Shown in pieces: positions 1 through 64,000 of a stretch of 64,000 nt of DNA; the first letter of the stretch is position 1; each line of letters begins with the position of its first letter. A model generated the notes under the pieces. It was not told the DNA's origin. It saw nothing but the letters and a program-made list of their open reading frames with translations, and ran no database searches. The stretch is from Lonicera japonica. Taxonomy: Eukaryota > Streptophyta > Magnoliopsida > Dipsacales > Caprifoliaceae. The stretch lies in the NCBI GenBank assembly GCA_021464415.1, contig CM038465.1, positions 18,631,839 to 18,695,838 of the forward strand. Direction: 5' to 3'. Position numbers and translations under genes: made by a program.

Positions 1-1148
1 TCTCCCCCCTCTCTCTTCTCCACTTACTGTCTCTTTTCCACCAGCAGCACCGGCACAAGGAGCATGGCGTCAACCACGGCGATGAAGAATGGAAGTTTGT
101 GAAGAATGAAAATTTGTGAAAATCAATGGAGATGATGATCGTGAACGACGTCCTCTATCTTGCTCCTGTTTTAAAATCCACTGTAGATCGAAAATTTCTT
201 AGTCGTGCTGAGCAAAAATGGCCATTCAAATTAAGATCCCTTTTACCTAAGTTTAAATAGGAAGGTAAAATCGGAATGGTATTTTAAAATTGTATTAATG
301 AGAAAAAGAAGGGGCAGTCTCTTGTAGTTAGTGGTCAAATCATAATCATTTTATTTTCAATCTTGGTTAATATATCATTGTTTTAGAGCATCTCACCACA
401 TCTCTCAACTTATTTTCCATCTTCTCATTCAAATTAAATGCTTTTCTTATCATTTTACATGTTGATATTAAACGGGGCCATAAAGTACTCTAGGATTTAA
501 ATTGATACAATTAGAACTTTGAGGTACACAATAAAATTGACCATAACTTCAGGGTTTATTTAATGATTAACCTATTTCTTTTTTATGGCGAGGGGGAGTT
601 TTGAAAAATCATATTTGTATTATGTTATTTGGTATTAAATCAAGTTCGTTTTGTGATTTCCATTTAGTTATGAGTTACTATTGCCTTTGTTTTGTGTATA
701 GTTAAATAAAAATCATACATGGCTCTATTATTGAGTAAGAATTACAAAATTCCTCTGAACTCATATTACATTTAATATGTATGATTCTAAAACTTGGGAT
801 TTACTTACTTGACATGTTAACGTGAAAGGGAAAACAAAAATCATAAACTTATACGGACAAATACAATCCACGTTGCTTGCGGGTACATATATATAGTACA
901 TTTTTTTTAATACATCGATGTAGGATTCCAATTAAAGACATCTCGATAGTCGGGAGTGAGTTTTGACCACTAAGTAAATTCTAATGGTTATGTATAATAA
1001 ATTTTGACCATACCATGCATGTTCCAAAGAACAAATTAAAACAAACTATATATATACACAGTGTATCATGCTAATATATATAGTTTTTATGTTTGTTTCT
1101 TTAGTTAGTATTTTCATTGATGGCTGACATGTCCTTTATAATCCACAG
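1..1148. other. AT-rich non-coding DNA upstream of the NB-LRR gene
   Basis: I see no coding exon here. No TIR-domain sequence is recognisable in any frame, although a TIR exon would be expected upstream of the NB-ARC exon at 1149. The last bases (atccacag, ending at 1148) make a good 3' splice site, so the stretch is best read as intron 1 of the receptor gene, or as what is left after loss of the TIR exon. Confidence 0.6.
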
Positions 1149-4100: not shown

Positions 4101-5008
4101 GAAACTATTTTACCAATATACCAAGCCTCAGTCAACTTTCTCAACTTTCACGCCTTTCCTTGGATGGTTGCAAAATGCTTCATGTACTCCCGGAGCTTCC
4201 ATCAAGTATAGAAGTATTGAGTGCAAATGATTGTCTGTCATTGAGACTCTTTGCAGACCAATTTACTAACAAGAAAAAAGTGTGGCATGCCTCATTCAGA
4301 AATTGCTTCCAACTGCTCAAGGAGTCGGCCAATGGAGAGAGTGAGAATATAGCTAGTACCTTGTGGCAACATATGATTCAGGTTCTCTATTTCCATATAC
4401 ATATATAATTTTCATTTTTTTTTGGGTGTCACTGTACACAAAGAAATTAAGTACTGACTACTGACTAAACGGCCGGCTTGATTATCTTGGTACAGCGAAG
4501 TTACAAGGGTTGGGTTTTCCAAAATGTTAACATTTTACTTCCAGGAAGAGATATTCCAGAGTGGTTCTGCAAGCAGACTGCAGGGACTTCAATTTCATTG
4601 AAGCTTCCTTCAAATTGGTCTCATAATAATTTCGAGGGATTTGGGTTTTGTATAGCTTTTGACCCAACATACAAAGCATTTTACGGCAGACGAAAAAAAG
4701 TCACAGGTGTTGAGGTGGAATTCATTGCCAGAACCAGCAGTAATCGTGAATACCGTCTCCGTCTAATTCGAGACATTGTAATAGGGGGAAACCAAAGAAT
4801 TAGCAGGGAGCATGTGTGTCTGTTCTACCTACCTTTTTCCTACCTGCAAGGTTATTATGACGGGAATGATTGGTGTGAAATTGAGGTTTCTATTAAAAAT
4901 TCAAGCCCAAACACTGCTGTGGTGACAAAATGGGGAATGGGTCTAGTTCCTAAGTCCCGAGGAGTATATATCGAACCATATGATAAGGAGGATGAAGATG
5001 TGGTGTGA
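1149..5008 (+). CDS. TIR-class NB-ARC/LRR disease resistance protein, no TIR exon in window
   Basis: Intracellular immune receptor: the NB-ARC domain is a nucleotide-dependent switch and the LRR senses effectors. Exons inferred from splice sites and frame: 1149-2223 (NB-ARC), 2355-2633 (linker), 3080-4381 (LRR), 4496-5008 (post-LRR, stop TGA). All are open and join in phase. NB-ARC motifs in order: P-loop GLSGIGKTT (1315), kinase-2 LVLDDVD, RNBS-B GPRSRIIITTRD, GGLPLAL, FLDIACFF, and MHQ (2122-2130) where MHD is usual. The LRR exon has about 23-residue repeats of the LPSSI type. The last exon holds the IPEWF motif typical of the C-JID/post-LRR domain of TNLs. The first base at 1149 completes a split codon, so a 5' exon is required; a TIR exon may lie before the window or be lost. 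No stop or frameshift is seen, so the visible part may be functional. Confidence 0.88.
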
Positions 5009-6662: not shown

Positions 6663-9600
6663 TCAAGGTGGTAAGTGAGAGACCAGCTGGAGTTTGGAAA
6701 TCAATGCTTGAAAACGGCTAAGCTGGTGAGCTTTAGTGAAGAGATCTGCAGGCTGGTCATCTGAAGATACGGGCATAAGATGAATGTACAGATTGCGAAT
6801 ATGCTGGCGAATAAAGTGACAATCAATCTCAATGTGTTTAGTTCGTTCATGAAAGACGTCATTGTGACTGATTTGAATGGCACTGCGGTTGTCACAATAA
6901 AGAGTAGTAGCAGAGTCTTGAGGAGCACCTAATTCATCGAGGAGGCGTCGAAGCCATATTAGTTCTTGTGAAGTATCAGCAAGAGCGCGGTATTCAGCCT
7001 CAGTGCTTGATCGAAAAACAACAGAATGTTTCTTACTACGCCAAGTAAGAAGGGAGTCCCCGAGGAAGAAACAGTAACCAGTAATAGACCGACGATCCGT
7101 AGGGTCACCGGCCCAGTCTGCATCAGAGTAAGCCCTTAATACAAGAGATGACTTTGAGGAGTAGTGAAGCCCATGAAAAACTGTCCCTTTAAGATAACGA
7201 ATAATCCGAATAACAGCATCAAAATGAGTAGAGCGAGGAGCAGCCATAAACTGACTGACAACATGGACAGCATAAGCAATATCCGGGCGAATAACAGTAA
7301 GATAAACCAGACTGCCAACTAACTGTCTGTATAAAGTTCCATCAGAGAGAGGAGTACCATCAAATGGAGTAAGTCTAACATTGGTGTCCAATGGAGTAGA
7401 TGCAATTTTACAGTCAGTGAGACCAGCACGAGCCAGAACGTCAGACGTGTATTTCACCTGAGATAAATAGTAACTTGTTGAATCAGAAAGGACTTCCAGC
7501 CCTAAGAAGTAGTTGAGACAACCAAGATCCTTCATTTCAAAAAACTGACTGAGAGATTGTTTGAGATCTGAGATACCAGAAATATCATCCCCAGTAATTA
7601 TCATATCATCCACATAAAGGAGAAGAAGAATAGTCCCAGAATCTGTCTTTCGAATAAAAAGGCTTGAGTCTGACGAACTGGATGAATAACCAAGCTTTGT
7701 GATGGTAGAGCTAAATTTTGCGAACCAAGCTCGGGGAGCTTGCTTGAGTCCATATAGGGCACGATGAAGTTTGCAGACCCTGAGTGGACTGGTGTAAATA
7801 ACCGGGAGGTGGTTTCATATATACTTCTTCTGTGAGGTCCCCATTAAGAAAGGCATTTTTAACATCCATCTGAAAAAGATCCCATTTACGAACGGCAGCA
7901 ATAGCAATAAGACTGCGAACAGACGTCATTCGAGCCACAGGAGCAAAAGTTTCTTCATAATCTATACCATACTCCTGATTTAACCCCTTGGCTACGAGAC
8001 GAGCTTTGTATCGGTCAATCGAACCGTCCGATCGTGTCTTGATTTTATACACCCATTTACACCCAACTGCAGATTTTCCAGGAGGAAGAGTCACAAGATC
8101 CCAGGTATGCGCTTTATCTAAAGCTTGTAATTCTTCTGTCATAGCTTGCTGCTAAAGTGGATTAGTACTAGCTTTCTTATAAGATGTAGGTTCATAGTGA
8201 GATATCATAGTAGAATAACAATGGTAATCACGAAGGTGATGAGGGAGCTCTCTTACCCGAGTGGACTGTCGTTGTGGTGGAGGTATGACAGGATCAGCAG
8301 GCGAGATATCATCATTGGGAGGTGCCGTATGTTGAAGCTCGTTGGAAGAAATGACGTCAGGTGAGGATGGTTCAGGAGGTGTTGGACTGGGAGGTTGAGG
8401 TGATGGTGTGGCTTCTGGTTCAGGTTCTGGTGGGAATGTGACAACTGGAGCCTCAAGTTCAGGGGTGAAAAGGTCAAGAGATGAATGAGTAAAGAACGGA
8501 AGTGGTGATTCTTTAAAGACATAAAATTTAGATAGAGAGGAGAACATTTTATGTTCCCAAAAGACAACATGACGAGAAATCCGTAAGCGTTTGAAAATAG
8601 GATCCCAACACCGATAACCTTTATGTTCTATCCCATACCCCAAGAAGCAACAAAGACGAGCACGTGGTTCCAATTTAGAATGTTCATGAGGCTGGAGTAA
8701 CACAAAACAAGCACAACCGAAGACTCGTAAGAAATTGTAATTAGGAGAGGTACAATGAAGTCTCTCATATGGAGATTAATGTTGAAGAAAGGGAATAGGG
8801 ATACGATTGATAGTGTAAATAGCAGTAAGTGCTACTTCCCCCCAAAACCTTTCAGGACAACTACTAGAGATAAGAAGTTTGCGAACAGTATCAAGAATAT
8901 GTATGTGCTTGCGTTCAGCACGACCATTTTGCTGAAATGTACTGGGAGAAGAATATTGAGAAATAGTGCCTTGTTCACGGAGAAATTTAAGAAATGAGGT
9001 TCCCTTGTATTCCATGGCATTATCAGCTCGAAAAATTTTTATTGGACGAGAAAACTGAGTTTGAATCATGCGAGCAAAATTAATATAGATTTGGGGTAAT
9101 TCTGAACGAGTTTTCATAAGATAGATCCAAGTAAAACGATTATAATCATCCAAAAAGATAACAAAATATTTTGAACCCACCATAGTAGAATGTGGAGAGG
9201 GTCCCCAAACATCAGAGTGAATAAGATCAAATGGTGCTGAAGAAATAGAATCATTTTTATTAAAACATAATGCCGGTTTTTTTCCAAGTTGACAAGATAA
9301 ACAAGACAATTTCTCAGACTTTATTGACCCTAACTGACCAGATGACACAATAGAACGAAGACGATCAAAAGACACATGTCCTAAACGGGAATGCCACAAC
9401 TCAAATGAAGAAATAGTTGGTGGGGATGCAACAGGTGGTGTGGATGCAACAATAGGAGTGGGTGAGGTACGGAGGTGTATGAGCTCGAACATGCGGCCAA
9501 CTTTACGGCCTATCCCAATAATTTGTCCCGTTTAAGGATCCTAGACATGACAACCAGAAGAGGAAAATATAACATTCAGCCCAAGATCACATAGTTGACC

Positions 9601-10797
9601 AACAGAAATAAGATTGATAGTCAATTTGGGAATATGAAATGTAGCAGGTAAAGAGAGGCTAGGAGTAGTAACCGTTCCAACATGACTAACAGATAATTGA
9701 GAGCCATCAGCAGTTTTAATGGTGGGTGTATGAGAATTATGACTTTTAGAGGTGAAAATAGTAAGATCAGAAGTCATATGATTGCAGCAGCCAGAATCAA
9801 AGAACCAAGATGTACCTGTGGTGGTGGCCATAGCAGAACCAGAAGAGGATGTAACCTGTTTCAGAAGAGCTGTGATGTCAGCTAGAGTCACTGGTGCAGT
9901 AGAAATGTCTGCTTCAGAAGAATCAGTGGTGGCAGCGGTGATGGTGCCAGAGGATGATCTAGAGGAGGATCTCCTGGATGGGTTCTTGTAACAATCGGCT
10001 TGAAAGTGACTTGGTCCCACCTTTTTGCAAAAGAAACACGTCCTAATTGGACACTTTAGTAGCATATGGGTGGTGGCATGACAGTACGAACATTCTCGAG
10101 AAAACGAGTTTTTGGTAGGTTTCGAGCTCGGAACGGCTAAAACAGCATTAAAATTGTGGGCCCGAGTGGCGAACCGAGTTTCTTCAGAGAGAAGCTCTGT
10201 CGTGACATCATCAAGAGACGGTAAAGGATTGCGATGGAATAGAGCAGCCGGAACTGGTTCGAATTTATCGTGAAGTCCCATTAGAAGAGTGATAACACGC
10301 TGGTTATCTCGGTATGTTTCAAATTTTTCTGCATCATGCTCACAAAAAGAAGGTTCGGATTGGGCTAACTGATCCCAAATAGCTTGAAGGTCGGATAAAT
10401 AATCATCAATTGATTACTCGGGTTGTTGGGTTTTAGAATGTAAAGCAGTAAGCAACTGGTATTGATGAGAGAGATCCTTTGGAGTGTACCTAGATTGTAG
10501 AAAATCTCAGACTTCCTTCCCGGTGGAAAAACGACCAATCTGCTGCGCTATACGAGAGATAGATGTATTCCGAACCCATGTGATAATATCACCATTTTTG
10601 CTTTCCAAATCATCAAGACGATCATTGAACTTATCGTCAGTTTCATCGGTTTTCTTGGTTGGCTTAACAACTTCTCCAGTAACAATTCTCCAGGACTTAT
10701 GAGACTTCAGAAAACTTGTCATGGCTTGGGACCATTGAACATAGTTGGTGCCATTGAGAACGACAGAAATCGGACGCGAAAACTTGTGCTTTTCCAT
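6663..10797 (-). pseudogene. Copia gag-pol polyprotein, broken
   Basis: Capsid/polyprotein gene read from ATG 10797 to the stop at 6663. Visible parts: gag N-terminus (10797-10507); two zinc knuckles (CSYCHATTHMLLKC and CFFCKKVGPSHFQADC, about 10000-10100); protease motif DSG near 9790; the HHCC zinc region and DDE integrase with HSDVWG, RADNAMEY and NGRAERKH (9490-8780); reverse transcriptase from KWVYKIKT to MDVKNAFLNG (8142-7711) and YVDDM near 7610; RNase H with SDADWAGD and TEAEYRAL (about 7130-6960). It is interrupted by several in-frame stops: near 10506, near 10415, two near 9536-9543 and one near 8776. There is also a frame shift in reverse transcriptase near 7711-7760. Several stops look like TGG, CAA or CAG codons changed by C-to-T or G-to-A. 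It cannot make an intact polyprotein. Confidence 0.92.
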
Positions 10798-41597: not shown

Positions 41598-43479
41598 GAT
41601 ACATCGACAAGTGTTTTCGTCAATGCCGACCTTATAACTCCTTTTAATTTCTCTCAATATCAAGTTTAATGCATGATGAGAAATGTAACCTCTCAACTCT
41701 CTCAAAGCTGGCAAATAGTAAGCACGCATTACACGAATCAAATTATGTTCAAACAACTCAGTGACAGCTGTAATCTGGCCAATGATCATGCGGTTGAGGA
41801 TATGCCACAGGGATGTGAAATTCTCTTTAGATGATTCTAGGTATTTCTTCAGTCTTGAATGTGCACCCTCAACTCGAGATGTTGTTGTGCTTCGAAAATG
41901 TCTTAGTTTATTGGTCCAAGCACAAAAAAATCGCTCCTTCCATGGCAACCATGTTTTATTAATATAACTAACACAATAGAAATATTGTGTCATTTTCCAT
42001 TTTTCTTCAAAAGCGATCCATCAATTGGCATACTCTTCTTCAAAAGATGAATAAATTATTTCTATCCACTCATGATCAAATGTAACCCATTCATCATTAG
42101 TCTGAAATGACTTTTTACAATGCGATGTAACATTCTTCGCTATGTGCCTAGTGCATAACAAGTGAAATGCATTAGGGAAAACTTTACGAATAGCACCTAT
42201 TAGTGCGAGCTCCCTATCTGTCACAAAAACAGTTAGTAGTTGAGACGAATCAAAAACATCCTTTAACCTATAAAGGGCCCAGGTGTGGTTCTCTTCTAGC
42301 TCATCTGTCAAAAATGTAAACCCAACGCAAAATGTTTTGTTCGTAGATGCAATACCAACAATCTGAAGTAGTGGTCACTTAAACCGATTGGTTTTGTATG
42401 TACAATCTAGTAACATGACTGAGCGAAAACGCTTTGCAAGCTTTATAGAATCTGGATTTGCCCAAAAGAGATCAAGCACCACATCAGTCATAGGATCCCG
42501 ATGATGCCATTCAAAATAATTATTTTCATATAATAACTTCATAACTTGTTGCATTGCCGACCTCCCTTCTGTTTCGACACTTTGAATTTTTTTTTGCGCA
42601 TTGTAAACTGTGGAAATAGTGGACTTGTTCTCCTTATTTCGTAGCTTTAAGGTTGCAAGAACATCTTTTGGTTTTACACCACTTTTTGTTAATTCTTCAA
42701 CAATTTGTTGTTCTTCACCTTTTAGTCTGCCAGCATAGGAGTGACCAACAGTAGTTTCACTAAGTGGGTGGTTGTGTAAACCATTAATCACCATAATCTT
42801 CCACTTTTCATCTTCATACATTGTTCCTCTCAACTTGAAAGGACAATTGCACTTTTTTGAACCTGACAATCGTTTGCGTTTCCTTACATCTTCCTTAACT
42901 ACGTTATCTGCACATAAAATATTTTTCCTTCGGTGACTACAAAAGACACCGCCCCTCTCACAACCTAGTAGAACTCTAGGCTTCTGTGAGTTATGTCCTG
43001 CGTCAGATTTTGCAATGACGACAACTGTGTTCAATCTAATGGCAACATTTTGAGCCCAAAGAATAAGTTCCTCCCGCGAATCAAATATCTGCATAGAAAA
43101 GTGAAAAAAAAGGTAATTGTAATTTACAAATAATTAACATTAATATAACAAGAAACTTTAAGCCTAAAATATATTCACCTTATCTGTTACAAAATGTGCA
43201 GTTAAATCCACACTATTATATTGTTGTTCGATTGCTTCTAATGGTGGTGCCAAATAATTTTCAACATCTTCAATTCTTAAATCGCGTGTGGACAACATCT
43301 TCTAATGATGGTATTATGTTGTATTAGATTGTTGGGATTCTTTTTAGAATTATAATAATAGGTTGAAAAAATCCACAAATATGTGGTTGCAATAGGTTGC
43401 AAAAAGCCAAATATGTGGCTGGAAACAAAAAAAAAACAGGAAAGGATAAAAAAATTCATTTTTAGAAGTGGCACTATTT

Positions 43480-50781: not shown

Positions 50782-51296
50782 TGTAATGACCCAGGCTCCG
50801 GCCCAGCAAGATATTGTCCGATTTGGATTGCTCCACTCTAGCTCCAACTATGTTGCCCTTTCCTGCACTGTTTTGTTCTTGGCAGGTGCACCCATGGCAA
50901 CCCCCAAAAGGCCTCTTACTAGTGGAAACCCTTTGGGTGCACATATAAGGTACTTAAACTTTTCCCCACATTCCGATGTGGGACATTACATCCTCCCCAC
51001 CATGCAGACCGACGCCTTCGTCGGCATAACGTACTCTGTGGGGTCCGCTCTGATACCATTTGTGATAACCCAGGCTCTAACCCTAGCAAGATATTGTTTT
51101 GTTCTTGGCAGGTGCCCCCATGCCAACCCCCAAAAGGCCTCTTACTAGTGGAAATCCCTTAGGTGCATATATAAGGTACTTAAACTTTCCCCCACATTTT
51201 GATGTGGGACATTACATTCTCCCCACCATGGGGACTGACACCCTTGTCGACACAACGTACTCTGTGGGGTCCGCTCTGATACCATTTGTGACGACC
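50782..51296 (-). mobile_element. Tandem TRIM retrotransposons, right arm
   Basis: Mirror of 23445-23949. LTR units 50782-50990 and 51061-51216 are separated by 70-80 bp pieces, each with a purine tract complement (tcctccccacc) and a primer-site complement (ccgctctgatacca). Confidence 0.8.
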
Positions 51297-51655
51297 CGAG
51301 CTCCGACCTTAATAAGATATTGTCTGCATTTGGTGGCTCCATTCTCAACTATGTTATCCGGTCCTACACCATAAGTCGTAACTATTGGCCAAGTATTAAT
51401 TGTTTCAGCTTTAATTATAGCTACAGAATAGTTAGATGAGAGAATACCGCAACGTAATACTTTAATGGGATGATCTAGCAATGAAGCCTAATAGCCGGCC
51501 AAGTATAGACTACATAATGAACTATAATTAAAGTGGAAACAATGAATACTTGGCCAATAGTTACGACTTACGGTGTACGACCGGATAGCATAGTTGAGAA
51601 TGGAGCCACCCAAAGTGGACAATATCTTGCTAGGGTCGGAGCCCGGGTCGCCACA
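51297..51655. mobile_element. 359-bp foldback element made from inverted TRIM LTR ends
   Basis: Starts TGTGACGACCCGAGCTCCGACC and ends with its near complement (GGTCGGAGCCCGGGTCGCCACA). About 150 bp on each side are inverted copies, including ccggt.gtacacc.taagtcg. The core holds a short unique sequence. The DNA could form a long hairpin. Confidence 0.75.
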
Positions 51656-52267: not shown

Positions 52268-53064
52268 GTTTGTCTCAACATTGGAAAGAAAATATTTTAT
52301 TTTATTTTATAAATGCAAAAACAAACAATTTATGTTTTAAGATTATGTTGTTTATAATCTGTATTATCTCATGGTAGTATGAACAATTTGAGGTAAATAT
52401 GGATGGCTTATTTTCAATGTGGTTTATGCTGTAGGTGAAATTCATATACATGTAGTCATTTCCAACGTGAGTTGTTAAGCACAATTTAGCGAGACATGAC
52501 TAGTTTCTTGTTTAGCATTCTTGAAGATTACACAAAACTAGCATGCTTTAAACAAGTACCAAATACTAAAATTTGAGTCAACCCATTTGTTTTGGTCGTG
52601 GAATAAATCCACCACACAGCGATAGAGCTTACATACTCTTAATCAAATTGCTTTTAACTACTTATGACTAACAACCTCCAAGAAGATCGAGAATTCGAAA
52701 ATCAATTAGCAAAATACTTCAGAGATCAAAAAGCTAAAGCTTGTTAGAATTCGTATTCCATAATTACTTAAATCCCTTTAAAAGGTCCATGATTCCTCTT
52801 GCGTTCCTCATGAGTTTTATTATACATTTAGTTCTCATTTGGTTCGAGTATTTCCTCATTTCTGGAATTCAAAATGGTAATCGCACATGGAAAGTTTGAG
52901 ATTCATCAACTCAACCTCTTGATATAAACTATAAGATACTCGTAGTGTGAATTCACCAATTTAGAATTCTAGTAATGGACAAAAACTCGAACCAAACAAG
53001 CACTTAGGATTGCAATTATTAGAACAATTGTACTTTCATGTTCAATCCACTTTGCTTGTCCATC

Positions 53065-54669
53065 TGTGAGAATCCGCAAATGCGACCCCCCGGGTCTCGT
53101 CCCCGTTTCTGTTTGGGCGTCTGAAACGTCGGAACGGATTCCATCGTTCCATTTGCAAGGAGAGTTTCTCTCTTGATTCATATCAAGTGTCCCTATGTTC
53201 TATTTCTAGATGCAAAGGGATTTGTTCAGAGTCGCCAGTAAGTTTTACGAGAAAACGGACAAAATAGTCGTGTAAGAGAAAAGGCTACAGATAAGCCTTT
53301 CTTTACACGTTTGTCTACGAAACCAGGATTCTATAGGGTTCGGAAACTATATTACAGTTTGGGAAGGTGTTAAGCACCCATTCCGCCCTTTCGGTCTCTA
53401 GTGGTCTTATATGTTTATTTTATGTTGAAAAACTTGGATGCTTTTACCGATAGCTTACTACTTTCTAAGTGAAAACCCTAACTCTTGGAAAAAACGGGAA
53501 AAGGATAGAAAACTTTGTGTTCCAAGATCCGACATTTCATTTTGAGAAATATAAATACAAGTGACAAAAGTGGTTTTCTTTAGAAATGGAGTTTCCCGTA
53601 TTATTTCTCAGATAATGACGGTTTTCTCGGGTTTTGACTATTTTCGTAAAAAGTCCGGATCTATGTAATGGAACTAATTCAATATGGAATTGGAACTCTT
53701 GAGGGGAGTTGTACCGGACATATCGCAATTTATGAAACAGATGGGATATGTCGGGTTTTTAATTCCTAAGTAAGTTTTACCGGTCCGGGTTTTGAAAATA
53801 GGATTTTATCCGGATGGTAATGTACTTACTCTTCTGGTTTTACAAATGATTTTATCAGGGTCTTTTGTTTTGAAAACGATAGACTATTTGTAACTTGGCA
53901 ATAAGTTTATTCAAATAAAACGTGGACAAAATAACAGAAATAAAACAAGTACACAGATATTTAATGTTAGATACTAGAAGAGACTTTCTTTACCTTCCTG
54001 ACGAGAATAATAATAATAAGAAAGAAAATATAATCCAACGGAGAGATTTCCGGCGATAATAATCTTTTCTTTCTTCAGATATTTCCGAGAATTCGATTCC
54101 AGAGATGGGACACGTCGAGTGTCGGGTATAGATCCGATAATTCTTCAGAGATAAGATGATAATATAGAATGCTTGATAAAATCAGACTAAAGCTCAGAAT
54201 TTCTAGATTCAAGATGCTGCCCCTGAACCCTTGGGGGTGTTGGCCTATTTATACTGCTCGGGGAAGATTGTCGCGCGACATTCCCCAAAAAAATGCAAGT
54301 GTCGCGCGACATATCTGACTGTCGCGCGACATTCCTAAATCACTGTACCTGTTTGTCGCGCGACATACCCGTATGTCGCGCGACAAGCGGCTGAAGTGAT
54401 GGGTACTGACACTGTGATGTGTCAGAGAGTTGTTGGTCGGGTGCAGAGAGGGATTGTTGCGCGATATAGTGGGATTGTCGCGCGACAAGCCAGTGATTGT
54501 CGCGCGACAATGTTATATGTCGTGCAACAATCCTTCATAAAAATAGGTTTGTCGCGTAACAAACCCCCCCGGATAGTTTCGGGTGCTCGGGTGGGTCCCG
54601 GACTCCAAAAACAGTAGTTCTCGTAGGTCGTTAGGGTTCTTGCGGGGGTCACGGATCGGGGTGTCTACA
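53065..54669 (-). repeat. Gypsy 3' LTR
   Basis: 1605 bp. On the minus strand it begins TGTAGACACCCCGATC at 54669 and ends GGATTCTCACA at 53065. U3 carries ten TGTCGCGCGACA-type palindromes followed by a TATA box at 54246-54253, giving a U3 of about 400 bp and R-U5 of about 1.2 kb. The adjoining purine tract is weak (gtcgagagggtt). The partner LTR is outside the window, so the exact ends rest on the TG/CA rule. Confidence 0.75.
54246..54561 (-). promoter_or_regulatory. LTR promoter: TATA box plus ten CpG palindromes
   Basis: TATAAATA on the minus strand at 54246-54253. Upstream on that strand are perfect TGTCGCGCGACA copies at 54269, 54300, 54320, 54354, 54374, 54476 and 54498, and degenerate copies at 54455, 54518 and 54550 (start positions). 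Centre spacings are 31, 20, 34, 20, 81, 21, 22, 20 and 32 bp. The nearest copy ends 15 bp from the TATA box. This should drive the genomic RNA from the matching 5' LTR. Confidence 0.75.
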
Positions 54670-54879
54670 AACCCTCTCGACTCAAGCTCCTTGCTTGCAA
54701 GGAATTGAGGCAACTGGAAGAGACCATGATCCATGGCTCCCGCATGGACTCTAAAGAAGTGTGTGTACACAGAAAGTATTTGTGACTGCCTCCGGAGAGG
54801 GCTTGTGTTTGGTTTTGCCTCTGGAGAGGGCTTTTGTTACCTCATTGCCTCTTTCGAGGGCTTTGATTTGTTCCACTTG

Positions 54880-55480
54880 CCTCAGATGGGCGGACTACCA
54901 TTGATCTTTTTTGCGCCTCAGGTGGGAGGACTACCATTGTGCCTCAGATGGGAGGACTACCGTTGTGCCTCTCTGGGAGGGCTTTGCCTCAGGTGGGAGG
55001 ACTACCGTTGTGCCTCTCTGGGAGGGCTTCGCCTCAGGTGGGAGGACTACCGTTGTACCTCTCTGAGAGGGCTTCGCCTCAGGTGGGAGGACTACCATTG
55101 TGCCTCTCTGAGAGGGCTTCGCCTCAGGTGGGAGGACTACCGTTGTGCCTCTCTGGGAGGGCTTCGCCTCAGGTGGGAGGACTACCGTTTGTGCCTCTCT
55201 GGGAGGGCTTCGCCTCAGGTGGGAGGACTACCGTTGTGCCTCTCTAAGAGGGCTTCGCCTCAGGTGGGAGGACTACCGTTTGTGCCTCTCTGGGAGGGCT
55301 TCGCCTCAGGTGGGAGGACTACCGTTGTGCCTCTCTAGGAGGGCTTCGCCTCAGGTGGGAGGACTACCGTTTGTGCCTCTCTGGGAGGGCTTCGCCTCAG
55401 GTGGGAGGACTACCGTTGTGCCTCTCTGGGAGGGCTTCGCCTCAGGTGGGAGGACTACCGTTGTGCCTCTCTGGGAGGGT
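54880..55480. repeat. 45-bp minisatellite, about a dozen units
   Basis: Unit gcctcaggtgggaggactac...gagggcttc. Unit starts at 54986, 55031, 55076 and 55121 are 45 bp apart; several later units are 46 bp through an extra T. On the plus strand a 45-bp unit reads as 15 residues, PQVGGLPLCLSGRAS-like, giving a 201-codon open frame from 54733 or earlier. The 46-bp units change frame, so I treat it as a repeat rather than a gene. Looser 'gcctct.gagagggctt' units flank it on both sides (54790-54870 and 55500-55600). Confidence 0.85.
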
Positions 55481-55600
55481 TTTTTGATCTGTAAGAAGAA
55501 GGAAAATTGCCTCTGGGAGGGCTTTCATGAGTAACTTTTGCCTCTGAAGAGGGCTTGTGTTTGTGTTTTGCCTCAGAAGAGGGCTTGTGTTTTTGATTTG

Positions 55601-56431
55601 GTGAAATTTAAATTTTGTCTCTCTTAGACTGCTAGAGTGAAAGAAAGAAGTTTTCGTGAAGGTGAAAAGAGCTCCTCGAGGTCTAATCTTATCCGAATGT
55701 CCGTTTTCCTGTATCTTTCTTGAATTTTATTCTCATGTTTTCCTCAAGTGAGGATACTTCTCTCAGAAGGCAGTTTTCGATTGTCTTTTGCTCTCCGCAG
55801 AGTGATGGTCCGAGGTTTTTCTAAATCATCTCTTCTTTATCGTGCTGAAAAGAAAATTTGTTTGAAAGTTCAATCTCTGATCTCTGTTTTCTTCTCAGTT
55901 TTCTCTTTTTGGTGGGCCCACATCGTTTTCTGTTTTTCGATGCCCTTATTTCTCCTTCTTTTGGGAAAGACTTTTCCTGGCCTTCTCTGTTTTTGACCAG
56001 GAGTCTTTTTATCCCTTTGTCGTGATCAGGAGCCTTACTCACCCAAAACGAAGCCCTGAGCCGATTTGGCCTAGCTGTCACTTTTGGTGTGGCTCTCCCT
56101 GTCACTCTACATTTCCGTTTCTCTCGCTCGCTCCGGGCGCTCCTACGGGTTATTTCTCTTTTCTACTCTTTCATTTTTTTCTCTATTCCCGTCTCAGGTA
56201 TTTTTGCTTCTTTCATTTTGATGGTCTCGGTCCTTCTGTGAGATCAGAGACTACTTTTAATCGTGGCATTCTGTTTTCGCATTTTTCGGAGAGATGATTT
56301 GGAAGTTTTCTCTTTGAATTCTTTATCATGGGTGTGTGGTTTTAGCAATTTTTTCGAAAACTGCTCCTCGGAAGTCCTCCTGCAGGAGATAAAATGAGAA
56401 AAAGGTCAAAAAATCAGGGGAGGGAGTGGTT
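55601..56431. other. Untranslated interior of the gypsy element
   Basis: CT-rich, no reading frame with recognisable features. It separates the minisatellite from the PMD gene promoter. Confidence 0.5.
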
Positions 56432-56515
56432 TGTCGCGCGACACTTCGGTGAATGGCTCTTTGTCGCGCGACAATGTGGCCATTTGTCGCGCGACAAACT
56501 GCCCCACTATATAAG
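56432..56515 (+). promoter_or_regulatory. Promoter of the antisense PMD gene: three CpG palindromes plus TATA box
   Basis: Perfect TGTCGCGCGACA at 56432-56443, 56462-56473 and 56485-56496 (centre spacing 30 and 23 bp), then TATATAAG at 56508-56515, only 11 bp further on. The first good ATG of the PMD gene is at 56652, after a CT-rich leader. Confidence 0.75.
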
Positions 56516-56651
56516 CCTCCTGCTGAGCTCATTCCACCTCATTCTCTCCTTTCTCTTTCTCTCTCTAGCTCTCTTTCTCTCTTCTTTCTAGCGCGGAAGC
56601 TCTGCCGTTTTTTTGACTTTTCCGACCTTTTCATATATTCTACCTATACCG

Positions 56652-59600
56652 ATGGACCCTGCTCATCCCAACAGACTGGAGGGCGACCAGGAGGAGGTCA
56701 CCTTCACTGACGCTCAGGGCGTTCTCCGCTGCAGCCTTCATCATGACGACTGGGCGGACTTGGATTGGTACGATAAGGATGGGATAGACCGCGGTCGGGC
56801 GGTGGTCTATCGGGATGCTATCCGAGCTGCTCCGGTCCCGGATGTCCCTTGGCTCTTGATGGAGCCTGTCTCTCACGAGATTCGTCGTCGATCTCTGGTA
56901 TGTCTTCTTTTGTGTACTTATCTGTTCTGCTTCTTGTCATTTCCTGTATTCATTTTAAACAATGTTAATATGCATGTCTGCCTAGGAATAACGCCCGATT
57001 TTTAGCGAACACATACTTTTACCTGTGATACCTCTCAGTTTTAGGAAAATTTACATAATTTACCCCTATAAACCTATAACTCTCATAATTACACCAAAGT
57101 ACCCTCAGTTTTAGGAAAATTACATAATTTACCCCTATAACCCTATAATTTTCATAATTACACCAAAGTACCCTCAGGTTTTGGAAAATTACATAATTTA
57201 CCCTTATAGCCCTATAACTCTCATAATTACACCAAAGTACCCTCAGGTTTTGGAAAATTACATAATTTACCCTTATAGCCCTATAATTCTCATAATTACA
57301 CCAAAGTACCCTCAGGTTTGGAAAATTACATAATTTACCCTTATAGCCCTATAACTCTCATAATTACACCAAAGTACCCTCAGGTTTGGAAAATTACATA
57401 ATTTACCCTTATAACCCTATAACTCTCATAATTACACCAAAGTACCCTCAGGTTTGGAAAATTACACAATTTTACCCCTATAACCCCATAACTCTTATAA
57501 TTACACCAAAGTACCCTCAGGTTTGGAAAATTACATAATTTACCCTTATAGCCCTATAATTCTCATAATTACACCAAAGTACCCTCAGGTTTGGAAAATT
57601 ACATAATTTACCCTTATAGCCCTATAATTCTCATAATTACACCAAAGTACCCTCAGGTTTGGAAAATTACATAATTTACCCTTATAGCCCTATAATTCTT
57701 ATAATTACACTAAAGTACCCTCAGGTTTGGAAAATTACATAATTTACCCTTATAGCCCTATAACTCTCATAATTACACCAAAGTACCCTCAGGTTTTGGA
57801 AAATTACATAATTTACCCTTATAGCCCTATAATTCTCATAATTACACCAAAATACCCTCAGGTTTGGAAAATTACATAATTTACCCTTATAGCCCTATAA
57901 CTCTCATAATTACACCAAAGTACCCTCAGTTTTTTGGAAAATTACATAATTTACCCTTATAGCCCTATAATTCTCATAATTACACCAAAATACCCTCAGG
58001 TTTGGAAAATTACATAATTTTACCCCTATAACCCCATACTCGTTCTCTTGTCTGCAGTGGGTTGGCCGGGTTAGGGTTCCCCCAACACTATATCTTCGGA
58101 ATGGCGACGAGCACCGGCCCCCGTCCAGGAGTTGATTCTCGCGACTCCTTTTGGCTCCCTCTTCGACGCCCTCCCAGAGCGGGTTTCTAGGGCGGCATTT
58201 TTGGTGTCGGCACTGGCTTGCCATTGGTGGGATACTACTCATACCTTCCATTGGAGCTGGGGTGAGATGACGATGACACCCCTCGATCTTTTTGCTTTGA
58301 CCGGGATTCCTTCGGGGGGGTTCCCATTCAGATCGATGTCCCTTTGCGTCTGACGGAAGAGGGTATTGTTAGCGCACTTGGATGGTTCCCGAAGCGACGG
58401 AGCTCTGGTGATACGATTCCTCGGGGTATCTTGGTTACGCGGCTAGCCACAGAGAGAGCTCGGCTAGTTGCTTCAGGGGTTCCTATGACCCGTCAGGAGG
58501 CGCGCCAGTATGCCCGCGTCCTTCTTCTGTTGACACTCCATGATTTATTTGAGGCTCGTGGTGGGGACACGGCTCATCTTTGGTGGTTGCCCTATCTTCA
58601 GGATTTCAGCCTCATGTTTGACTATGACTGGGGAGGCTTCATTCTTGCAGTCCTCTATGATGCCATGAACCAGGTCTCTCGTCATTTACCCCTGAACCTC
58701 AAGGGCTTTTCTCTGCTGTGGGAGGTACATACTTTAGTCCCTTTGCTTCAGTTCTTTACATATTACCTGTTGATCATTGCTGATTTCTTTTATCTTTCCT
58801 TTTCAGAGTTGGTTTGTTGCTTATACCCGCCTGGGTCGCGCCCAGGTGGATCTCCTCGTTGAGAACGAGGACCAGTTCCCTTTTCTTCGCCGATTCATTG
58901 CGGGGAACTACAGGGCTCCCTATGTATACCGGACTCGGGAGACCGGAGCTACTGCTGTCCACGACCTGCGGGAGGAGCAGGTAAAATATTTTAGTTTTCT
59001 TGCTCTTCAATAGTTAGATAAAATATATATATAAATTACTGAAATAAAATCTTGTCCTCTTTTCAGATTGAGTGGGCCCCTTGGGGTGATCTGGGTCTCC
59101 ATTTTGGGTATGGCCGCGCTCTGACCGCCTCGAGGACCAGGCGGCTTATTCAGGATGAGTACGGCCTTCTTTTCTACTTGGGCGAGAGGGTCATTCGACA
59201 GCACACGCCGTCCCAGTGGCCTCGTGTTCCATTATTTCCTCTTGTTCTGATGAGGCGGACAGGCGAGATCGATCCGGTGACGGTGCAGGCCTTGGTCGAC
59301 GGTCTCAGCTTCCAGACGTTCGTCGAGGAGGGAGACTACGCTGTTTTTGCTGCCCGTTACCTGATGAGGGAGCCGAAGGGGACTCGGGGACGGGTCTTCT
59401 ATGAGAGGTACCGGGCATTGGGAGGTGATCCCCATTACATACGGGGACATACCCATTTAGCTAGGGCGGTTCCGGGTCACTTGCCACCTGTCCCCGATCA
59501 GAGGGACAACATTCCGGATTTTGAGGACGAGGATCCTGAGGGAGAGAGGGATGTTCCTGCTGCGGCCAAGGGTGGTGATCGGCCGGAGGGCGAGGGAGGT

Positions 59601-60616
59601 GATACTACGGCGGCTCTAGAGCAGTCACCTCAGACGTCACCTGTGGGGGAGCAGTGTGTTGAGGGTTTTGAGTTCCCTGCCGGCCCTCCTGTGTCTCCGG
59701 GGGTCCTTTTTGCTGCTGCTGAGGCTGCTGAGGGGAGAGCGGGACTTTCTGAGAGGTCCTGGGAGCCCGCGGACCTTGGGGCAGATTACGACCAGTTTGG
59801 GCGGACTCCTCCTGCGGCGGCGACTACTCCTTCTGGTGGGGTACCTCCTTTGAGGGCGACGACGAAGGTGGACCCTCCAGGGGTCCATACATATGCTACG
59901 TTGACTCCTCTCCCGACGACTGTCATGGGGCCTCCCGCCCGATCTCCAGGATTTGGCGGCTCATCCTCTCGCCCACTCTTGTTCCCCATTCGTGAGGAGG
60001 GAGGGTCTACTTCTGCAGCTATTCCTGCGGGGTCGTCTATCCCGTGGGTAGATCTACCCCCACTCCCCAGAGATATCTCCTATGTCGGCGCTGGCTTGCG
60101 TCGATATCCTGTCCCGGAGTATCCTCTTTCTGAGGATACCTTCGACTATCTGGGTGGTCGCCCTGGTGACGAGGTACCTTCTTTTACCCATTATGTCTAT
60201 CTCTATTTATTTTGACTGTGCTGATTCTCTTTATGTCTTTTTTACAGAGAGTGAGCGTACGGGTGGCAGATCTACGGGCTTGGCACGCCCAGTACCTCTA
60301 CAGCTGGAACCTGCTCCAGTATGTCGGTCGAGACCCTCCAGCCTATATGCGTGACTACCAGAGGGCTATTGACGTCTCCCTACGGCCGGACGACCCCCTG
60401 ACTTCCTCTCATGCCCGGACGGATTCTCGGAGGAGCAGTAGTTGGACTTCTAGGCGTTCCTGATCGTCGGTGATCCGTCCTACGGCACCGGTCCAGTCCA
60501 CGGGGCCTTCCCAGGCGACAGTTCCTCCTGTTCCTGGCGTCCCAGTTGTTGATCTTACTCCCGAGGAGGGCTCGGGTGATAGTGGGAGCGTGTCAAAACG
60601 CGCCCGTATAGATTAG
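56652..60616 (+). pseudogene. Plant mobile domain (PMD) protein gene, five exons, two lesions
   Basis: PMD proteins include Arabidopsis MAIN/MAIL1, needed for gene expression and transposon silencing; the domain is also spread by transposons. Exons: 56652-56897, about 58075-58724 (58058 is an alternative acceptor), 58807-58980, 59067-60173, and 60248-60616. Donors and acceptors are canonical and phase 0. PMD landmarks: THTFHWSWGEMTMTPLDLFALTG in two parts (about residues 137-160) and FDYDWGGFILAVLYDAMNQ. The tail is Pro/Glu/Gly-rich, low complexity, and ends with a basic SKRARID, a possible nuclear signal. Lesions: a frame change at a run of seven G (58314-58320) and a TGA at 60461, after which the same frame stays open to TAG 60614-60616. 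The first could be a sequencing error. It lies antisense to the retrotransposon RNA. Confidence 0.8.
57030..58040. repeat. 68-bp minisatellite filling PMD intron 1
   Basis: About 15 head-to-tail units of 68-69 bp built on acataatttaccc.tatag, ccctataa.tctcataatt and acaccaaagtaccctcagg. The array lies wholly between the exon 1 donor (56898) and the exon 2 acceptor. Confidence 0.92.
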
Positions 60617-60951
60617 TTTTCTGTTTTCTGCACTTAGTGTTAGTTCTGGACAGATATGTATTATTTTTTTTTAGACATGTTTAGACGGATATTTAAAAAT
60701 TGTTCTTTTATTGGATTTATAAAATATCTTTATCTGTGTTTGATCATACTTTTATTCTCTGTGTGTGAAAGATATATACATATATATATATATATAAGAG
60801 TCGGTGATTTAGAAGCATGCCTTGTAGTGTAGTGATACTTTTCCTGTAAAAAGAGCAAAGTGAGAACAAGAAATCATCTAAAAATGATTCTTTTGGCAAA
60901 AATGACTGTTATGTGTAAGAAAAACCAAATTAAGGTGACCCCAAAGGGGTT
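60617..60951. other. PMD gene 3' flank
   Basis: Non-coding AT-rich sequence with an (AT)n run at about 60775-60796. It probably holds the PMD polyadenylation region. Confidence 0.5.
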
Positions 60952-61029
60952 TGTCGCGCGACAATCCCTCCTGGATATGGGTTTTTCACGCGACAAACAG
61001 GTACAGGTCCCTCTTTTTTGCTATAAATA
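60952..61029 (+). promoter_or_regulatory. Promoter of the DUF7745-like gene: two CpG palindromes plus TATA box
   Basis: Perfect TGTCGCGCGACA at 60952-60963 and a degenerate TTTCACGCGACA at 60984-60995 (centre spacing 32 bp). TATAAATA follows at 61022-61029 and the ATG at 61069. Confidence 0.72.
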
Positions 61030-61068
61030 CACCCATCTTCCTTCCTTCATCCCCACACTCTCCAAAAA

Positions 61069-62325
61069 ATGTCTTCTTATCGCACAAAATCTGATTTTTC
61101 TTATGTCAATGCTCGAGATGCTTTGATATCTTCCGAAAATGGTCTGAACTTTGGTGCCTTTAGTCCTTTAGCGGGCTGGTGCCATCGTCCCGTCGATTTT
61201 TCCTTTCTGTTAGGTGCCTTGTATTTCTGGAGTCCTGGGGACCATCTCTTCCGCTTTGGACTGGATGAGCTCTGCCCGACCTATGAAGAGTTCTCCTGGC
61301 TGCTACGTTCTGACGTTCGTCTCCCAATGGCAATTCCCATAGAAGAAATCGGTCCCCGAAACATGCTAATTGCTCTGTTAGCCATTCCCCAGGCGGCCTG
61401 TGATGGTTTCATTGCTGACGGACTTCTTGACCTCCATAAAATGGTGAGGTTCTTTCATCGTTATGAAGATAGGGCCTCTTACGGCATGGGGCGTACTGCA
61501 GCGGCCCTGATTTGCCTGGTTTCTGATATGCTACTGGTGACGGGTTCTTCCCGTGTTGATCCGACTATCCTGAGTCTGATTTACCAGGCTAGAAATGGGG
61601 AGTCTATAGTGCCGATCGTTCTTGCAGAAACCCTGAATGGTCTGGATGAGGTTCATCGGGGGACTTCACCCTTTTTTCGGGGGAGTCCGCGTTTACTATA
61701 CATGTGGCTGCTGGAGCACTTTCGATCGGTGGGTTTCAACGGAGTTCGGCTCGATAATCCTACTCATTTCTTCCATCGACCTCTTTTTGGTGCTTTGACC
61801 ATGTCTTCCTCTGATTGGACGGTGTGGTTTTCGGAGAACTTTCGCGCTATCCGGTGGAACATTCCTTGGTGGAAACTGAGGGCGATGGTACTTAGCACTA
61901 GTGGACAGAACTATGTTCGGCTCCGCGGGCTCTGGTTTACTTCCTTTTATCTCCCCGGACGTCTTCTTTGGCAGTTTAACATTCCTCAAGAGGTTTCTCT
62001 TGGTCTGAACAACTTCTCTTCTGAGTCTAAATTTGTGACCCCGCATGTTTCTTTATCGGTAGAGAGGATGTGGCGTGCTCGACTGACTCGTCAGTTCAAC
62101 TATGCCCGTTTTGGTATTACCCGACCCCTCCGGGCTGATATTATCCGCTCTTGCTGGCAATCTCTGGAAGGAGAACTGATCCACGACCCCTTTCAAATGG
62201 AGTGGTTCCGGTTCATGGATACGGAGGCTACTGATGATAACATTGTTTTTGCATATCAGATTTTGGACGAAGCTCGGATCGACTTGGCTACTGAGGACCC
62301 AGTGTGGCCAACCCCTAGGGATTAG
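61069..62325 (+). CDS. DUF7745-like protein, antisense accessory gene of the gypsy element
   Basis: 418 codons, single exon, no stop or frame shift, from ATG 61069 (just downstream of TATA 61022 and a short leader) to TAG 62323-62325. The pattern FSFLLGALYFWSPGDHLFRF, then LDELCPTYEEFSWLL, then PIVLAETLNGLDEVHR with RLLYMWLLEHF, then LRGLWFTSFYLPGRLLWQF, resembles the plant-specific DUF7745 family, common in and near retrotransposons. The molecular function of that family is not established. No signal peptide or membrane segment is obvious. It is convergent with pol, whose end is 226 bp away, and shares its promoter palindrome with the PMD gene and the LTR. Confidence 0.78.
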   Translation: MSSYRTKSDFSYVNARDALISSENGLNFGAFSPLAGWCHRPVDFSFLLGALYFWSPGDHLFRFGLDELCPTYEEFSWLLRSDVRLPMAIPIEEIGPRNMLIALLAIPQAACDGFIADGLLDLHKMVRFFHRYEDRASYGMGRTAAALICLVSDMLLVTGSSRVDPTILSLIYQARNGESIVPIVLAETLNGLDEVHRGTSPFFRGSPRLLYMWLLEHFRSVGFNGVRLDNPTHFFHRPLFGALTMSSSDWTVWFSENFRAIRWNIPWWKLRAMVLSTSGQNYVRLRGLWFTSFYLPGRLLWQFNIPQEVSLGLNNFSSESKFVTPHVSLSVERMWRARLTRQFNYARFGITRPLRADIIRSCWQSLEGELIHDPFQMEWFRFMDTEATDDNIVFAYQILDEARIDLATEDPVWPTPRD

Positions 62326-62550
62326 TTTCTTTTGTATTGTTATGTCTCCTTTGTAACCTTTGGTGTTCTGAACCACCTTTTAATAATAATATATAAGGGA
62401 TTGCTTGTGGGAAATAAATTTATTTACAAAGTTTAAACCGGGCCTGAAGTCACCTCTCAGGTTGCCTACGTTCCCCTTTTTGATTTTTACAAAGAACAAA
62501 AAGTTTTGAGTTGGGGCTCAGGTTTACGTAGTTCTTATTACATGCCACAC
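62326..62550. other. Spacer between convergent genes
   Basis: AT-rich with taataataatat (about 62382), a possible polyadenylation signal region for the plus-strand gene. No gene. Confidence 0.5.
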
Positions 62551-64000
62551 CTATTGGTGATACTTCTTCAGTCGATCCATGTTGACTGGTGAATGTAGTA
62601 ACTGCCCATCCAAATCAGTGAGTATAGTGGCACCTCCTGTATCGATTTTTTTGACGATGTACGGCCCTGTCCACTTCTGTCCGAACTTACCCCTCAGATC
62701 TCTGGCTGGTTCTCGAATTTCTTTTAATACGACATCGTTCTCATTGATACCCCGAGTCTTCACCTTCTGGTTAAATGCTCGAGCGATTCTCTTCTGATAC
62801 CCTGATGGTGGTACGCGGCTTTCAATCTCTTTTCATCTAGTAGGGCTAGCTCGTTATAACGTGCTTGGACCCACTCTAGTTCATTGACCTGATTTTCTAG
62901 CATTACCCTGAGGGAGGGGACTTCTAACTCAACAGGGAGGACTGCTTCCATCCCGTATGTAAGAGAGAACGGGGTTGCCCCGGTGGAGACCCTCTCGGTG
63001 GTGCGGTATCCCCACAATGCATAAGGTAATTTCTCTGGCCAGTCTCGACAGGTGTCGGTCATCTTGCTTAGGATATTCTTCAAATTTTTGTTGGCGGCTT
63101 CAACTGCCCCATTGGTTTGTGGCCTGTATGGCGAAGACCTGTGTCTGGTAATACCGTATTCTTCCATGACGGTATTAGCTTCTCCTTCGAAGTGGGTGCC
63201 GTTATCTGAGATGATCTCGTGTGGGACCCCATACCGGCAAACAATATTCCTTTTGATGAATCGGGCTACTTTTTTGGCATCTAGGGTCTGGTAAGACTCG
63301 GCTTCTACCCATTTGGTGAAGTAGTCGATGGCCACTAGTATGAATTCATGGCCGTTGCTGGCTTTGGGCGAGATCTTCCCAATGATGTCGATTCCCCAGG
63401 TTGCGAAAGGCCAGGGAGCAGTCATGGTGTACAACTCTTTTGGAGGAAGCTTCTGGGATTTAGCATAAATTTGGCACTTGTGACAACGGCGTATGTGGTT
63501 AGCGCAGTCGGTTTGCAGGGTAGACCAGAAATAACCTTGTCTGATGATTTTGCGGGCAAGTGTATGTTCGCTCATATGAGGTCCGCAATCGCCCCCATGT
63601 ATTTGATCCATCATTCTGGCTGATTCTTCTTCGGTGAGGCATTGAAGATGAGTCCCGTCGTAGTTCCTTTTATACAATCTTCCGGCACAAAGTATGAACC
63701 CCGATGCTAATCTTCTGAGTGTGACCCGTGTTTTCTTGTCTGTTTTCTCAGGATATTGATGGTTCTTCAGCAGGTTCCAGATATCGTAAAACCAAGTGGT
63801 CGAATCCTCTTCCCCTTCATTTTCTACCACCAAGGCTGTGCAGTGTGCTGGTTCTGACTTCTTTTGCACCGTAAGAGTTATTTCTTTCATTCCTTCTGGG
63901 ATATCGATCATAGATGCCAGGGTTGCCAGTGCGTCAGCAAAACTGTTCTGAGACCTGGGGAGATAGTAAAATTCCGTATGCTTGAACTTTCCCGCGATAT
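62551..64000 (-). pseudogene. Gypsy pol, RNase H end and integrase, partial and frame-shifted
   Basis: The frame is open from the window edge: FADALATLAS is the end of RNase H; then the integrase zinc finger (HGGDCGPHMSEH...CHKC); and the catalytic core with TWGIDIIG, ISDNGTHFEG and GAVEAANKNLK supplying D, D, E. The core inserts the DNA copy into the chromosome. The C-terminal part (LRGKFGQKWTGPYIVKKIDT) is in another frame: one base is lost or gained near 62800-62806. The protein ends at 62551, with no chromodomain seen. The N-terminal parts of pol are outside the window. Confidence 0.9.

Follow-up and report, generated by a model that had tools for sequence, protein, structure and literature searches.

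What is one short palindrome doing in front of three promoters of a single mobile element? The question is raised by a 64,000-base stretch of Lonicera japonica DNA (contig CM038465.1, positions 18,631,839 to 18,695,838; the window), which holds part of a long terminal repeat (LTR) retrotransposon that is, judged by its integrase, of Ty3 type. Within it the 12-base palindrome TGTCGCGCGACA recurs in the U3 region of the LTR and ahead of two accessory genes, one PMD-like and one DUF7745-like, which are read in the opposite direction. An earlier note on this DNA had listed 15 sites, 11 of them perfect, in three clusters of ten, three and two, and had argued from their position that one DNA-binding protein acts on all three.

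A single palindrome stands before three promoters

The tally is borne out by our recount and by shuffled sequences. With up to two mismatches allowed, TGTCGCGCGACA has 15 matches in the window (11 perfect, 4 with exactly two mismatches), whereas dinucleotide shuffles (n=100) averaged 0.49 and never exceeded 2. The clustering of TGTCGCGCGACA is confirmed, and the sites and the neighboring TATA boxes are laid out as follows.

54269..54561, no strand assigned: cluster 1, ten palindromes, seven of them perfect, within the U3 of the LTR
56432..56496, no strand assigned: cluster 2, three palindromes, all perfect, 5' of the PMD-like gene
60952..60995, no strand assigned: cluster 3, two palindromes, one perfect and one with two mismatches, 5' of the DUF7745-like gene
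54247..54253, minus strand: TATA box for transcription from the LTR (TATAAAT when read on that strand)
56508..56514, plus strand: TATA box of the PMD-like gene
61022..61028, plus strand: TATA box of the DUF7745-like gene

The core of the palindrome is GTCGCGCGAC. The window has 11 CGCGCG hexamers, none of them outside a perfect copy of TGTCGCGCGACA, which is also the only palindromic 12-mer seen more than twice in the window when AT runs and N runs are set aside.

The site nearest to the TATA box is separated from it by 15 bp in cluster 1, 11 bp in cluster 2 and 26 bp in cluster 3, with the box on the transcribed strand each time; the ten U3 sites together stand 15-296 bp from the LTR box. Apart from the boxes at 54253 (minus), 56508 (plus) and 61022 (plus), no TATAWAW box was listed near the clusters. 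For about 10% of the positions in the window a TATAWAW box lies 5-35 bp off in either direction, a range that was set after looking, and the corresponding chance for three clusters is about 0.001. Two further claims of the earlier note, a TATA box 11 to 26 bp downstream of the clusters on the gene strand and an LTR read opposite to both genes, hold in all three clusters. The three clusters are therefore best read as marking three promoters of a single element that have one cis-element in common, and TGTCGCGCGACA is probably a shared promoter element of the LTR and the accessory genes. This much of the argument from shared sites to a shared binder stands; its further step, a binder encoded by the element itself, is weakened by the Sirevirus comparison given below.

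Arrangement and conservation of the sites

The successive spacings in cluster 1 are 31, 20, 34, 20, 81, 21, 22, 20 and 32, and 30, 23 and 32 complete the twelve of the window. Taken together they fall preferentially near multiples of the helical turn (mean cosine 0.69; p about 0.0006 relative to jittered spacings), and the 8 spacings of perfect sites alone do so with p about 0.011. The spacers themselves are mostly unlike one another, the identity over their first eight bases averaging 2.67/8 against 2.07 expected, with 6 as the largest value. The CpG observed/expected ratio of the U3 is 1.37 with the sites and 0.76 with the sites masked. By our own count 40 of the 45 site CpGs are intact, and 6 of the 8 mismatches in imperfect sites are CpG transitions, which is the expectation if silent copies are methylated.

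Some of the flanking sequence is common to two of the clusters. The 11-bp flank AACAGGTACAG is identical below the U3 site 54354-54365 and above site 60984-60995 of the DUF7745 promoter, which itself has two mismatches; at both sites the flank faces the TATA box and has the same orientation to transcription. Sites 54455 and 60952 likewise have a common 7-bp flank on the TATA side. The DUF7745 promoter may thus have acquired pieces with sites from the U3, or the U3 from it. With the sites masked, comparison of the U3 with the DUF7745 promoter gave p values of 0.007 and 0.077 for the two orientations. The flanks of the PMD cluster have nothing longer than 4 bp in common with the other clusters, and its three masked comparisons gave p values of 0.68, 0.74 and 0.96; on this sequence evidence the PMD cluster looks separate. 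Tandem Repeats Finder scored one 2-copy 20-bp unit in the U3. Among viral contigs, no stretch held paired palindromes 5-30 bp apart; a 14-base form of the palindrome was present in 65 stretches, 63 with a single site and 2 with two distant sites, which we take as background.

A relative of the DUF7745-like gene offers a view of cluster 3 in another copy. The public protein P0002 (LguiA_007186 of Lonicera macranthoides), which is 93% identical to the window protein, appears to be annotated too long. Its residues 1-41 precede the true start, and we read them as translated promoter, including the TATA region. In this extension 31 of the 41 residues agree with a translation of the window that starts at 60945, shifted by one base from the gene frame; the shift implies a length difference of about one base between the two copies near the start codon. 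Two places in the extension are compatible with a perfect TGTCGCGCGACA; by our count their spacing is 32 bp, the value also seen in the window. The second place agrees with a perfect copy, and the window sequence there is the degenerate TTTCACGCGACA. Elsewhere in P0001-P0019, with the 41-residue stretch excluded, none of 16,506 residue-and-phase positions is compatible with TGTCGCGCGACA. These observations are compatible with both cluster 3 sites being preserved in the Lonicera macranthoides relative. When the window is compared with P0002, a small sample, the first site shows no change, against 3 differences among the 6 residues that separate the sites, and the TATA side is conserved about as well as the sites. 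In P0019, from the DUF7745-type gene of another species, the upstream extension allows a TATA box, and no palindrome can be inferred in it. The case for one cis-element common to the promoters gains from the helical spacings, from the compatibility of P0002 and from the identical 11-bp flank.

We propose that TGTCGCGCGACA would be a dyad-symmetric binding site for one homodimeric nuclear protein, and that it would act as the proximal upstream element of three promoters: that of the LTR, which would give genomic RNA, and those of the antisense PMD-like and DUF7745-like genes. Sites about two or three helical turns apart could let several dimers bind the same side of the helix directly before TATA, and the LTR and the accessory genes would then be switched together. 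Since each site has three CpGs, binding would probably be sensitive to CG methylation, and the arrays would then report the silencing state of the element. We infer the protein, its homodimeric state, activation as the sign of its effect and the methylation sensitivity.

Several points weigh against this proposal. The sites were read in one element copy with one LTR. The helical-turn test was devised after looking, the spacings of 34 and 81 do not fit whole turns singly, and periods near 12 bp score at least equally by a resultant-length measure. The flank common to a U3 site and a DUF7745-promoter site means that not all sites are independent in origin. Finally, what P0002 contributes is protein letters, which are compatible with the sites and no proof of them.

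The carrier element and its accessory genes

Going down from pol, the element has the 418-residue gene, the gene of about five exons, a 45-bp tandem repeat and the LTR.

62760..63998, minus strand: end of pol, integrase (rve, H2C2) of Ty3 type, from Pfam domains and protein matches
61069..62325, plus strand: intact DUF7745/PMD-like gene of one exon, 418 aa, running antisense to pol
56652..60463, plus strand: broken PMD-like gene, running antisense to pol, its exons (about five) predicted by eye
57029..58038, no strand assigned: tandem array of a 68-bp unit, 14.7 copies, within the first intron of the PMD-like gene
54941..55479, no strand assigned: tandem array of a 45-bp unit, 11.9 copies, lying between PMD-like gene and LTR
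53065..54669, minus strand: LTR of about 1.6 kb, candidate limits, upper end TGTAGACACC adjoining a purine tract, lower end guessed

The integrase (rve 5.3e-11, H2C2 1.7e-06) terminates pol and matches Ty3 Gag-Pol among other integrases; the RNase H tail is weak in the window (RVT_3, E 0.22), and the reverse transcriptase falls outside it. On the minus strand the LTR opens with TG at 54669, beside the purine tract. Because the window holds only one LTR, the label LTR U3 rests on these features, namely the TATA box, the TG end, the purine tract and the end of pol on the minus strand. A blastn comparison of 52500-64000 with the window, from which matches within 1,200 bases were excluded, listed nothing else and no second LTR.

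The spliced part of the PMD-like gene matches the Pfam PMD profile (PF10536) with E 7.6e-07 and 29.1 bits, under the 34.9 cut-off, in a scan that omitted exon 1 and the start of exon 2. Over 58% of the query it is 92% identical to P0006 (LguiA_017809 of Lonicera macranthoides). Together with the 93% identity of P0002, this points to a host in Lonicera (Caprifoliaceae) or close to it. Two lesions break the PMD-like gene in this copy: exon 2 has a frameshift, and the last exon has a stop at a point where the P0006 reading continues. The frameshift could also be an assembly error, because none of P0006-P0008 spans that region. The PMD profile gave 14.5 bits with the DUF7745-like window protein and 24.7 with P0002, both under the cut-off, and had no match in P0006 or P0008. 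With DUF7745 (PF24924, cut-off 26 bits), P0003, a 43% identical relative, scored 27.8 and P0002 12.3; the window protein was not listed. Neither window protein passes a Pfam cut-off; the names PMD-like and DUF7745/PMD-like are fair descriptions. The Pfam scans of the element proteins otherwise gave weak, chance-level matches. For the DUF7745-like protein an AlphaFold2 model had a mean predicted local distance difference test score (pLDDT) of 39.8, too low for use, and a sequence search of the PDB found no solved relative. Viral contig searches with this protein, its alignment and the integrase gave no relative confirmed by protein.

Relation to known systems

The closest precedent for this layout appears to be the promoter design already known from Sireviruses, in another superfamily and with another core. 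As described in the parts of PMC2829016 available to us, 13 Sireviruses carry palindromic repeated motifs (RM boxes) in 8-32 copies, mostly forming CpG islands; the boxes lie upstream of TATA in the LTR, and extra linker copies, nearly all before env, occur only in env-bearing elements. The likeness lies in one CpG-rich, high-copy palindrome per element, placed in the LTR upstream of TATA and again before an accessory gene. The Sirevirus core is mostly CGG-CCG, unlike GTCGCGCGAC here, although Tnd-1, one of the 13 published RMs, is also without this signature (PMC2829016). In the same portions of that source, no common binder of the RMs was found by its authors, and four env-less Sireviruses still have 8-9 palindromes, in the LTR alone. 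Such LTR arrays thus need no accessory gene, which weakens the case for a protein of the element as binder. Sireviruses are of the Ty1/copia type, whereas the integrase that ends pol in the present carrier matches Ty3 Gag-Pol. The Sirevirus env gene is in sense orientation; the element here has two antisense genes and, unlike Sireviruses, a close TATA box of its own for each cluster. Among the papers that our searches of an open-licence library listed, none reports TGTCGCGCGACA in a Ty3/gypsy or PMD-bearing element, judged by title or by the abstract where one was shown.

Retand and Grande elements resemble the present one in a long region between pol and the 3' LTR that has antisense genes and, often, tandem repeats, and Grande gene23 is described as transcribed from its own promoter (PMC11963269, PMC7264820). 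According to the sections available of these two sources, Retand clusters nearly always have a TRP28 domain, in contrast to the PMD-like and DUF7745-like genes found here; the same sections contain no mention of shared promoter palindromes. TRP28 (PF04195) was not listed in our Pfam scans of the antisense genes, which covered the DUF7745-like protein and, for the PMD-like gene, the part from within exon 2 onward.

Candidate binders of the palindrome

A host factor is a likelier binder than a protein of the element, with the remainder going to RNA structure or relic sequence. That the sites are captured host response elements, read for example by an auxin response factor (ARF) through TGTC half-sites or by another binder of CG palindromes, has in our judgment about an even chance. 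TGTCGC is a tested variant of the auxin element (PMC10690724). In the available text of PMC6207667, ARF peaks tend to contain several TGTC, and clade A ARFs favor TGTC:TGTC direct repeats 7 bp apart with 10-bp phasing; by our own count the TGTC:TGTC gaps of neighboring palindromes are 16-18 and 26-30 bp, near 17 and 27. The same text has ARFs favoring TGTC:GACA cores 11-12 bp apart, although a range of spacings is seen, while the separation inside the palindrome is 4 bp. Recognition of TGTC by an ARF also leaves the invariant GCGC center of the 11 perfect copies without explanation. The ARF evidence is mixed overall, and canonical auxin sites fit poorly as the identity of the palindrome.

The earlier note had kept a host factor, for example of the E2F type, as its main alternative. 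The E2F fit is weak: the site has TGTCGCGC, one base off the TTTCGCGC named there, and lacks the TTT of the E2F consensus. Further patterns were tried and set aside. The CAMTA CGCG box, taken as VCGCGB, has no position in the clusters, and neither do TTTCCCGC and TTTGGCGC; the two E2F forms are absent from the clusters, and TCTCGCGAGA was tested as a pattern and dropped. Of the 10 papers listed as containing the palindrome or a piece of it, none is, by title, about a plant promoter.

It is rather unlikely that the element regulates itself in the manner of VANC, with the DUF7745-like or PMD-like protein binding the palindrome to activate or de-silence its own three promoters. The sites do stand at both accessory gene promoters, and there is a precedent in VANC, since transposon-encoded anti-silencing proteins bind short motifs repeated in their own element (PMC5735166). 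PMD-A clades are reported to be encoded exclusively by Gypsy elements (PMC5418596), and PMD is described in 57% of Ogre elements (PMC6317226). Genes that depend on the host PMD proteins MAIN/MAIL1 for their expression in many cases have a common promoter motif (PMC7156037), and MAIN, MAIL1 and PP7L thus offer a likeness in PMD proteins linked to a promoter motif (PMC7156037, PMC9899485). Their 'DOWN' motif CATGCAGTTT, in the form printed for MORC1, is unrelated to TGTCGCGCGACA and absent from the window. The env-less Sireviruses, the breaks in the window copy of the PMD-like gene and the poor model of the DUF7745-like protein also speak against binding by a protein of the element.

The comparison with VANC is an analogy only. 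In both systems a mobile element with accessory genes has a short motif that recurs in its non-coding parts; VANDAL, by contrast, is a DNA transposon, and its YAGTATTAY motif is not palindromic and has binding shown by chromatin immunoprecipitation and gel shift (PMC5735166). A full LTR-retrotransposon counterpart of VANC, in which the PMD-like or DUF7745-like protein would recognize TGTCGCGCGACA, autoregulate the accessory promoters and turn on or de-silence the LTR, is a shade less probable again than self-regulation in general.

The element offers a clean test of these possibilities, with one palindrome, three promoters and one intact accessory protein. If an element protein binds, the antisense genes of plant retrotransposons would be transcriptional regulators of their own element, and transposon PMD proteins would gain a biochemical function. 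If a host factor binds, this would show how two retrotransposon superfamilies reached the same promoter design.

RNA structure and passive copying

The palindromes might instead work as hairpins in the genomic RNA, in dimerization, packaging or as a source of small RNA, with the nearness of TATA incidental; we consider this improbable. For the minus strand of the U3 the folding energy is -161 kcal/mol, compared with -99 for shuffles (z -11.5), and the PMD cluster has a fold z of -5.6. Among 545 folding windows tested, 15 reached -40 kcal/mol or lower, and 13 of these overlap clusters 1 and 2. Folding is inherent in palindromes, so that folding energy has no power to decide; what hairpins would predict is small RNAs, and palindrome-rich Sirevirus LTRs are described as small RNA hotspots (PMC10760457, PMC5311732). 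Hairpins predict neither a TATA box at all three clusters nor one invariant sequence, as any stem would serve, and maize Ty3 elements are, in the available part of PMC10760457, generally without a clear peak of such structures.

That the clusters are relics of LTR promoter duplication or site amplification, with no present function, is the least probable account, for although the common TATA-facing flanks, the 20-bp repeat unit and the resemblance of the masked U3 to the DUF7745 promoter agree with it, the PMD cluster has no such flank or resemblance, and the first site of cluster 3 is unchanged from P0002 while residues between the sites differ, on that small sample and with the TATA side about equally kept. 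A shared promoter element is our preferred reading of TGTCGCGCGACA.

Other features of the window

Four further features lie in the rest of the window. Parts of a disease resistance gene, with NB-ARC, leucine-rich repeat and C-JID domains in three open reading frames, occupy 1117-5008 (plus strand). Remains of a Ty1/copia element (RVT_2, SH3_retrovirus, gag_pre-integrs, rve and Pol_BBD, in four open reading frames) lie at 6663-10281 (minus strand). An open reading frame at 42378-43094 (minus strand) has a DNA-binding domain of the AFT/FAR1 type (AFT 3.5e-08; FAR1 3.5e-05, below its cut-off). At 50869-51655 a pair of 226-bp direct repeats (88% identical) is followed by a 134-bp inverted repeat (89% complementary).

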